A DNA stretch of 64,000 nt from an uncultured Cohaesibacter sp. (GTDB taxonomy: Bacteria; Pseudomonadota; Alphaproteobacteria; Rhizobiales; Cohaesibacteraceae), in the NCBI RefSeq assembly GCF_963682185.1, contig NZ_OY821667.1, forward strand, positions 3,485,501 to 3,549,500. Direction: 5' to 3'. The notes under the pieces were generated by a model that saw only the letters and a list, made by a program, of their open reading frames with translations, had not been told where the DNA came from and did no database searches. Both the position numbers and the translations under genes were made by a program. Below, piece after piece: positions 25,256-26,275 of this stretch (position 1 is the stretch's first letter; each line of letters opens with the position of its first letter).

Positions 25256-25862
25256 CAGTGACATTTTGCTCTGCAGTCTTGCTACGGCAAGGGCTGTTTT
25301 GGGGTGTCCGGAGCCTTCCGGGCCTGCCTGTTGCCTTTTGGTGTGCCTTGGTCATGCTGTTGATCTCAAATCTCTGAAATTTTCCGCAAAGTGCCTGCGT
25401 GTCGGCGCGAAGAGCTGTGTATTTAAATCGATATAAATAGCTTGTGGGGGAATGTTTGGGGGCAAAAATGGGCCCTTTTGCCTATCGCAAAGGGACATTT
25501 TGCACCGACTTCATCTATTTTTCCCTACAACAAGCCTTGCATTCTTTGCAATGGAATCGAGACGTGGAAACTACATACTCCCTTAGTCGTAAAGAAAGAC
25601 GTTTTTAAGGCATTGAAAAATATATATTATTTTTTTGACAAAATTTAGATATCACAATAATGCATAGATAAATTTTGAGATGGGCACGAATTGCATGATA
25701 GTCAAGACAGCTATGCAAACTTGTAGGGTGAAAAATTCGAAGCCATGTTCTATATACATAATCAAGAAAGCGATGAGGAACTTTAAAACGAGTTACAACT
25801 CAGGCGCCTTCGAAAAAAGCAGTTGAACACCTAATGCCACATAGCAACAAAGGATGACGACA
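25256..25862. other. Intergenic and leader region before the DUF1127 gene
   Basis: About 600 bases, AT-rich from 25560 to 25800. Short frames here (for example from 25442) have no ribosome site or family resemblance. The right part should hold the promoter and 5' leader of the DUF1127/small-RNA transcript; see the sigma-32-like site at 25720. Confidence 0.55.
25720..25748 (+). promoter_or_regulatory. Candidate RpoH-type promoter of the DUF1127/sRNA unit
   Basis: CTTGTA at 25720-25725 and CCATGT at 25743-25748, 17 bases apart, resemble the alphaproteobacterial heat-shock sigma pattern CTTGAA-N17-CCATNT. It would start transcription near 25755, about 110 bases before the DUF1127 ATG. The Rhodobacter counterpart (RSP_6037/CcsR) is known to be RpoHI/RpoHII-dependent, which makes the match more credible. 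It is a pattern match only. Confidence 0.4.
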
Positions 25863-26018
25863 ATGATGAATACTGTTGTGAAGAATTACCGTCAGTGGCG
25901 CAACTACCGCGACACTGTTGAAGAACTGAACCGTTTGAGCACCCGCGATCTTAACGACCTGGGCATCTCCCGTTCGGATATCAGCGACATTGCACGCGAA
26001 GCTGCTACTGCAAAATAA
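25863..26018 (+). CDS. DUF1127 (YjiS-like) small protein
   Basis: A 51-residue protein with AAAGGATGACGA just before the ATG (a second ATG follows directly). It begins MMNTVVKNYRQWRNYRDTVE and contains the diagnostic core ELNRLSTRDLNDLGISRSDI of DUF1127, small proteins common in alphaproteobacteria and linked to RNA binding or stress physiology in some species. It is followed by three CCUCCUCCC hairpins, the arrangement of Rhodobacter RSP_6037 and its CcsR small RNAs, so it is probably the first cistron of a stress transcript that is processed into small RNAs. Confidence 0.88.
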   Translation: MMNTVVKNYRQWRNYRDTVEELNRLSTRDLNDLGISRSDISDIAREAATAK

Positions 26019-26078
26019 AAAAGTCTTTCGCTGACGATCAAAAGTCTAAGCGAAAGCCACGAGTTTCTTAAGAATTCA

Positions 26079-26186
26079 GGCTTTACCTCCTCCCAAAGCC
26101 TGATCCGATCCAAAACTTCCTCCTCCCGGTTTTGGATCCTCCAACGAAGCCCACCGGACCTCCTCCCCCGGTGGGCTTTCGTTTGT
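26079..26186 (+). ncRNA. Three CCUCCUCCC-motif hairpin small RNAs (CcsR / cuckoo type)
   Basis: Three consecutive hairpins each expose CCTCCTCCC in the loop. Hairpin 1: stem GGCTTT/AAAGCC, motif 26086-26094. Hairpin 2: stem GATCCAAAAC/GTTTTGGATC (26107-26138), motif 26119-26127. Hairpin 3: stem GCCCACCGG/CCGGTGGGC (26149-26176), motif 26159-26167, followed by TTTCGTTTGT and so probably also the terminator. The loops match the anti-Shine-Dalgarno sequence of 16S rRNA, so the RNAs could pair with GGAGG in mRNA leaders or bind protein. In Rhodobacter sphaeroides, CcsR1-4 behind a DUF1127 gene act in oxidative-stress resistance. Their presence here is read directly; the function is inferred by homology of layout. 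Confidence 0.88.
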
Positions 26187-26275
26187 CTGGCTTCCAGTTT
26201 CCCGATCTATTTCGTGCCAACCAGCGCCAATGCGCGTGAATTGCCATTTGGCTCTCAGACAAAAGTTGGCAAAAG

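Follow-up and report, generated by a model that had tools for sequence, protein, structure and literature searches.

The 64,000-nucleotide stretch of an uncultured Cohaesibacter sp. genome analysed here (the window) carries a compact unit in which a DUF1127 gene is preceded by an LsrB/VtlR-like promoter element and followed directly by a three-hairpin RNA of the ar14 (NfeR1) family. We read these parts as a single unit, in which LsrB/VtlR-type activation would give rise to both a DUF1127 mini-protein and a 3′-end ar14 RNA that silences mRNAs at their Shine-Dalgarno (SD) sequences, and we put the probability of this reading at roughly two in three. Under such a scheme, a LysR activator of the LsrB/VtlR type would bind about 45–60 nt upstream of the transcription start and turn the unit on; a single transcript would then yield the DUF1127 mini-protein and, at its 3′ end, an NfeR1-type ar14 RNA, whose three exposed UCCUCCC loops would pair with the SD sequences of target mRNAs and so block their translation, while the third hairpin would terminate the transcript. 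The model is drawn from the LsrB/VtlR activation described in relatives, taken together with the presence of both outputs in one Cohaesibacter unit. The features of the locus are as follows (positions are those of the window):

25692–25717, plus strand: LsrB/VtlR-like operator TGCATGATAGTCAAGACAGCTATGCA, from promoter alignment and motif matches
25703–25717: match to the Brucella VtlR motif, 12/15 positions identical
25704–25716: LsrB consensus GCAT-N3-TG-N3-T, matched exactly on the minus strand
25727–25755, plus strand: predicted core promoter, with a weak −35 (GGTGAA, 25727–25732), N17 and a −10 (CTATAT, 25750–25755)
25863–26018, plus strand: DUF1127 gene including the stop codon, 51 aa
26025–26056, plus strand: leading 3′ UTR hairpin without an anti-Shine-Dalgarno (aSD) loop (TTTCGCT/AGCGAAA), from the fold
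26071–26183, plus strand: ar14-type RNA (RF02344)
26076–26103, plus strand: aSD hairpin 1, loop CCTCCTCCC at 26086–26094
26107–26138, plus strand: aSD hairpin 2, loop CCTCCTCCC at 26119–26127
26143–26183, plus strand: aSD hairpin 3, loop CCTCCTCCC at 26159–26167, G+C-rich stem

A DUF1127 gene followed by an ar14-type RNA

The DUF1127 gene lies exactly where the original prediction had placed it, with an alternative in-frame ATG at 25854 that would extend the protein to 54 aa. A profile search assigned the 51-residue product to DUF1127 (PF06568, E value 4.4e-15, 55.6 bits against a cut-off of 23.3). A Cohaesibacter marisflavi contig encodes an identical DUF1127 protein (54/54 residues), and among the nine genes of the window's paralogue group the codon differences, summed over pairs, comprise 267 synonymous and 138 non-synonymous changes.

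The claim that three hairpins with aSD loops directly follow the gene was borne out by motif scan, fold and Rfam match alike. The loop sequence CCTCCTCCC has exactly three matches in the 64 kb when both strands are searched, all of them on the plus strand and within 82 nt; shuffled versions of the 64 kb contained a mean of 0.60 matches and reached three in 1 of 100 shuffles. Folding of the 172-nt region 26019–26190 returned −63.5 kcal/mol, compared with −37.2 (sd 3.75) in shuffles (z −7.0; 0/200 as good), and placed all three CCTCCTCCC copies in hairpin loops, with an unpaired stretch preceding hairpin 1. The leading hairpin is a fourth one, positioned between the DUF1127 stop codon and hairpin 1; it is present in the second copy of the unit in this genome and missing from the third. 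Hairpin 3 likely doubles as a transcription terminator. In view of the proposed mimicry of the 16S tail, the Cohaesibacter genome was searched for GGATCACCTCCTTTCT, the usual alphaproteobacterial 16S end; no exact match was found, and the rRNA may be masked or have a different end.

Membership of the cuckoo/CcsR-type family, for which a covariance-model search had been proposed, was likewise supported: the Rfam model of ar14 (NfeR1) matched over its full length (1–123) at 91.8 bits, above the gathering threshold of 58.8. The window RNA has the three hairpins with CCUCCUCCC in unpaired loops that characterize ar14, and the locus has the aSD hairpins 3′ of a DUF1127 gene that mark a CIN1/cuckoo locus as defined in PMC10253847.

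Copies of the unit and conservation of the loops within Cohaesibacter

In the genome containing the window (5.39 Mb, one contig), RF02344 exceeds its cut-off at three places, each of them 3′ of a DUF1127 gene. Among this genome and 60 relatives, 37/61 returned an RF02344 match at an E value of 0.01 and 23/61 a match over the cut-off. All 18 Cohaesibacter genomes have a match, and together they hold 37 places over the cut-off. These figures supply the copy number in the clade, which the original prediction had supposed to be undescribed; a full-text literature search on these RNAs found no paper naming the genus. A DUF1127 gene lies upstream in 35 of the 37 units, while the promoter element and all three hairpins are present without it in two Cohaesibacter genomes (L064 and L065).

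Loops and stems were counted in the 29 distinct sequences among the 37 units, corresponding to 87 hairpins. TCCTCCC is present in 87/87 loops (the hairpin script demanded this motif, and none of the 87 hairpins failed it), CTCCTCCC in 77/87 and the full CCTCCTCCC in 65/87. Stem pairs have changed on both sides at 5, 1 and 2 of 8 positions in hairpins 1, 2 and 3, respectively, which do not count as independent events because the sequences are related, and non-pairing stem cells amount to 5/696. The conservation of the loop against changing stems, from which selection on the loop had been argued, therefore holds for TCCTCCC, the stems varying compensatorily, and no close relative was found to have lost this motif while keeping the stems. 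Two parts of the argument need qualification. The stems do differ between the three hairpins, yet each is largely constant at its own position across the genus; and the loop CCTCCTCCC, identical in all three hairpins of the window copy, is not so genus-wide, as 22/87 loops lack the full sequence.

Several variants were seen alongside these units. The third paralogue of this genome (L003; C1:72857–72970 and the preceding gene) has a shortened DUF1127 protein core (NRECEVSISRADV), and codon differences among the nine copies of its group are mostly synonymous (473 versus 95, summed over pairs). A fourth DUF1127 gene of the same genome is not followed by an RF02344 match; inspection by eye showed one hairpin there (CAGGGGTC/GACCCCTG), with an aSD-like loop CTCCTTGA (L013:950–975). 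Five low-scoring Cohaesibacter loci (L083, L087, L089, L090 and L091) represent a second kind of aSD locus with two hairpins and without DUF1127 or a clear LsrB box; GTTCACATTTAGTGAAC precedes L089.

An LsrB/VtlR-like element in the promoter

The conserved promoter of the window unit sits before the DUF1127 gene. In a 36-row promoter alignment (35 Cohaesibacter sequences and one from a sister genus), the best-conserved upstream block reads TGCAT-N6-CAAG-n-CAGCTATGCA, and the TAT of the −10 is invariant (36/36). With up to three mismatches allowed, this block occurs at five places in the genome, three of which are the promoters of the three units; the reversed pattern occurs at none.

Published descriptions give the Brucella VtlR motif as CAATGCAGCCATGCA (PMC12595884), the LsrB consensus as GCAT-N3-TG-N3-T, located at −61 to −49 of abcR1 (PMC8844928), and the LsrB site of nfeR1 at −72 to −60 (PMC10746234). 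The three copies in this genome match CAATGCAGCCATGCA at 12, 13 and 12 of 15 positions, the best of 50 shuffles each reaching 12, 11 and 11, so that the 12/15 match of the window copy, taken alone, is equalled by shuffling; all three also match the seven-base LsrB consensus exactly on the minus strand. Each of these consensus matches is weak evidence by itself. If transcription starts about 7 nt past the −10, as we infer, the LsrB consensus match in the window lies at about −58 to −46, and the case for an operator is built on this position and on conservation, among rows that are related to one another.

We also defined a 15-position motif, TGCATAGCTGNNTTGCA, which is derivable from Cohaesibacter alone but was fixed after the promoters of other genomes had been viewed. 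Upstream of the units it scores 12–15 of 15 in 37/37 cases, against a downstream maximum of 11 (36 measured), a result that represents recurrence rather than an independent test because the motif was read from these sequences. In one unit (L029), the best match lies away from the aligned site.

The stress-sigma reading that the original prediction had carried over from RSP_6037 found no support in this analysis. At the window core promoter, three mismatches separate the sequence from the sigma-70 pattern CTTGAC-N17-CTATAT and three, at the same place, from RpoH1, which thus fits no better; what precedes every copy tested is instead the LsrB/VtlR-like element. An RpoH promoter of the Rhodobacter kind is not evident.

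A candidate LsrB-like regulator

A LysR gene encoding 296 aa lies after trxB in the Cohaesibacter genome and is lsrB-like, lsrB being reported to follow trxB in Rhizobiales (PMC11975290). In searches with this protein (18, 5 and 18 genomes), orthologue matches stood at 46 % or more, whereas other LysR proteins did not exceed 36 %, apart from a second copy at 41 %. Amylibacter ulvae, a Sulfitobacter MAG and a Rhodobacteraceae MAG (the genomes of loci L052–L054) have one LsrB-type protein each (46–48 %); LsrB has been called unique to Rhizobiales on the basis of a sample of 12 proteins (PMC11975290). In a 45-sequence tree with a midpoint root, the proteins of these three Rhodobacterales group with those of three genomes from family f65, next to the remaining sequences and with support of 99/99, and three further long-branched sequences fall on the same side as LsrB. 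As the tree is midpoint-rooted and, like the comparisons, contains no LsrB sequence from S. meliloti, Agrobacterium or Brucella for reference, orthology of these proteins with LsrB is likely rather than proven. Among the LsrB-type proteins of Rhodobacterales and family f65 (L137–L139 and L148–L150), no trxB match was found within about 1.5 kb in L137–L139.

Directly behind the lsrB-like gene, in the position described for S. meliloti (PMC8844928), lies an AbcR-like RNA (L104, C1:1283746–1283882; RF02345, 33.2 bits, below the cut-off of 40) that contains a CCTCCTCCC stretch.

A redox signal for the LsrB-like protein was considered and lowered. Cysteines C144 and C273 of Agrobacterium LsrB have been linked to redox sensing, whereas the Cohaesibacter protein has a single Cys, at position 190, and alignment columns 140 and 269 (taken as C144 and C273) are both Cys in 1/32 orthologue rows (G042). 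An oxidative signal cannot be assumed because the equivalents of these cysteines are missing.

Possible functions of the unit

LsrB binding and activation are suggested by analogy with S. meliloti nfeR1 and abcR1, Agrobacterium atu1667 and the Brucella DUF1127 genes; for silencing of translation through the aSD loops, the analogue is S. meliloti NfeR1. In S. meliloti, LsrB is reported to activate nfeR1, and the loops of NfeR1 to pair at the translation start of ntrB, resulting in silencing (PMC10746234); in Brucella and Agrobacterium, VtlR is reported to activate small DUF1127-type genes directly (PMC7486931, PMC12595884). Perfect targets in the Cohaesibacter genome, i.e. GGGAGGAGG followed by ATG within 2–12 nt, showed no enrichment (7 places versus 7 for the reversed control), and shorter pairing or few targets must therefore be assumed.

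Three other readings were weighed against LsrB-controlled silencing. The gene order equals that of R. sphaeroides ccaF1-CcsR1-4, for which an RpoHI/RpoHII promoter and RNase E processing are described (PMC10253847), and the unit might accordingly be a stress operon under RpoH control, with RNase E cutting its transcript into the DUF1127 mRNA and three separate aSD RNAs and the DUF1127 protein aiding their maturation; the unpaired stretch before hairpin 1 could be the cleavage site. We consider this unlikely, as the RpoH consensus is no better than sigma-70 at the window promoter and a conserved operator-like element of another kind is present. Hairpins in UTRs commonly protect mRNA, and hairpin 3 is terminator-like in the fold, so the hairpins could also form a passive 3′ UTR that just stabilizes or terminates the DUF1127 mRNA, with a loop that has no target in trans. 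Such a role is very improbable: TCCTCCC is kept in every loop although the stems change on both sides, the RNA is retained without DUF1127 in two Cohaesibacter genomes, viral contigs (see below) carry it without a DUF1127 gene within 600 nt upstream, and silencing by S. meliloti NfeR1 is reported to depend on the loops (PMC10746234).

The loops might, on the other hand, serve as a sink or landing pad that sponges a protein (DUF1127 or ribosomal) or mRNA leaders generally, tuning translation globally. The fit of the loop to SD sequences in general and the lack of enrichment of perfect targets would suit this role, as would the reported RNA binding of the DUF1127 protein CcaF1 and its action on the CcsR RNAs with which it shares a transcript (PMC10253847). 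However, NfeR1 and AbcR1/2 are reported to silence defined mRNAs (PMC10746234, PMC8844928), and RNA binding may not be general among DUF1127 proteins, one of which is reported to act on the PhoR kinase by protein–protein contact (PMC12501420); a sink is in our view quite improbable.

Relationship to known systems

The window RNA is clearly a member of the known ar14 family, and the pairing of DUF1127 with aSD hairpins has also been published, as the CIN1/cuckoo layout. Hairpins of the CCUCCUCCC type have been on record since 2011 (PMC3927594), and the link between DUF1127 and aSD RNAs is known as CIN1 (via PMC10253847). Three points are absent from the literature searched and thus possibly new: the presence of an LsrB-like operator on a unit that combines both products, the likely extension of this operator to Rhodobacterales, and the copies in phages.

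Like the window RNA, ar14/NfeR1 (RF02344; SmelA075 in PMC3927594) is described with three CCUCCUCCC-loop hairpins and diverged stems, and both systems share an LsrB-type promoter element and a CTATAT −10. NfeR1, the best-studied relative, for which an NtrC site is described in symbionts, is however reported to be a single 123-nt RNA that stands alone behind a promoter of its own (PMC10746234), whereas in Cohaesibacter the RNA makes up the 3′ end of a unit shared with DUF1127. R. sphaeroides ccaF1-CcsR1-4 (CIN1, cuckoo family) has, as in Cohaesibacter, DUF1127 followed by same-strand aSD hairpins and a terminator, but is described with four CcsR RNAs and an RpoHI/RpoHII promoter where Cohaesibacter has three hairpins and an LsrB-like operator. 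The VtlR/LsrB-controlled genes bab1_0914, bab2_0512 and bab2_0574 (Brucella) and atu1667 (Agrobacterium) place DUF1127 behind the same operator type, and their published descriptions, on which this comparison is based, mention no aSD RNA behind them. AbcR1/2 (ar15) are also aSD-motif RNAs, AbcR1 being reported as LsrB-controlled in S. meliloti, but they bind Hfq and belong to a different Rfam family from ar14; a separate candidate lies beside the lsrB-like gene in the Cohaesibacter genome.

In rhizobia, agrobacteria and brucellae, the DUF1127 genes and the aSD RNAs described as being under LsrB/VtlR control occupy different loci, and we found no explanation in the literature consulted for why one regulator governs both. 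In Cohaesibacter, a single unit with a single operator-like site in front encodes both products, so the link can be tested in one small operon, and natural copies exist with and without the DUF1127 protein gene.

Box and loci in other genomes and on plasmids

More broadly, LsrB-type control may be an old switch of DUF1127 genes and aSD RNAs shared across Alphaproteobacteria rather than a speciality of Rhizobiales, with temperate phages of two lineages having captured a stand-alone, LsrB-box-driven ar14 RNA in their replication/recombination module. The first part of this view is based on the occurrence of both LsrB-type proteins (46–48 %) and LsrB-like boxes in Rhodobacterales that have these loci; we hold the view tentatively, at somewhat less than even odds.

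The 450 nt before each RF02344 match were scored for the box in 33 non-Cohaesibacter genomes (19 from the set of relatives and 14 from the class-wide search). Of the genomes that combine an RF02344 match with an LsrB orthologue, 11/24 reached a score of at least 12, compared with 0/9 of those lacking the orthologue (Fisher P=0.015), in a test that is not fully blind because the motif was fixed after some other genomes' promoters had been viewed; at a threshold of 13, the counts were 7/24 and 0/9 (P=0.15). Scores below 12 were returned by 13/24 LsrB-bearing genomes; the RF02344 match of several of these is weak and possibly spurious, and many weak matches across the whole set may be due to chance. 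One genome (G082, locus L111) was counted below 12 because the 450-nt stretch missed a 12/15 box farther upstream. At the aSD loci of Rhodobacterales and family f65, the box scores (of 15) were 13 for L052, 11 for L053 (within chance), 14 for L054, 12 for L111, 15 for L112 and 12 for L116. L111 (G082) and L116 (G391) are arrays of eight and four aSD hairpins, respectively, as counted by our hairpin rule, 3′ of a DUF1127 gene.

The class-wide RF02344 search matched 15/385 genomes, with one over the cut-off, namely the genome of the window itself; these numbers say little about the true spread because the strict filters scored at most eight candidates per genome.

On named plasmids, we examined nine DUF1127 loci, picked for variety among 40 listed of 303 matching records. 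A plasmid of Pseudochrobactrum algeriensis (Brucellaceae) carries a box (TGCATAGCTGCGTTGCT, 14/15, 0/200 resamples), CTATAT, DUF1127 and three aSD loops in the Cohaesibacter order; it is the exception, the other 8/9 loci showing no clear LsrB-like box. In 5/9 loci, CTCCTCCC was not found within about 500 nt of DUF1127, while the plasmid loci of Rhizobium N621, R. leguminosarum 9B and Agrobacterium vitis have three to four aSD loops starting ~190–200 nt behind DUF1127.

Viral contigs carrying the RNA

Scanning a viral collection for three spaced CCTCCTCCC motifs returned 63 stretches (L179–L241), none of which showed a DUF1127 gene on the same strand in the preceding 600 nt. Under a stricter rule (three motifs, no more and no fewer, and stems of five or more pairs), 43 places remained; at 70 % identity over 500 nt, 40 of these form two groups, one of 22 and one of 18. 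An LsrB-like box starts 75 nt before the first loop motif in 40/40 of the grouped contigs (12–14 of 15), and none was found in the three remaining places (scores 8, 8 and 10). All 12 viral loci scanned with the ar14 model of Rfam, including nine from the two groups, scored above gathering. Two contigs were inspected:

L191:10789–10913, minus strand: phage ar14 RNA
L204:7518–7638, plus strand: phage ar14 RNA

In both, the RNA sits among phage replication/recombination genes. Within a few kb, PHROGs annotation gave a helicase, an exonuclease, a Cas4-like exonuclease, a sliding clamp, Sak4, endonuclease VII and a CI-like repressor for L191, and Gam, a primase and a methyltransferase for L204. No description of phage copies of these RNAs was found by full-text literature search. 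If capture of the ar14 RNA is real, phages would produce an RNA that silences translation and is controlled by a regulator of the host, which raises the question of whether an SD blocker under host control curbs host or phage translation.

The fold of the L191 RNA gave a z of −6.5. The 501-nt region around it had no match among 50,697 phage records and one partial match elsewhere, on a Neorhizobium plasmid, where four aSD loops form an array with a 12/15 box.
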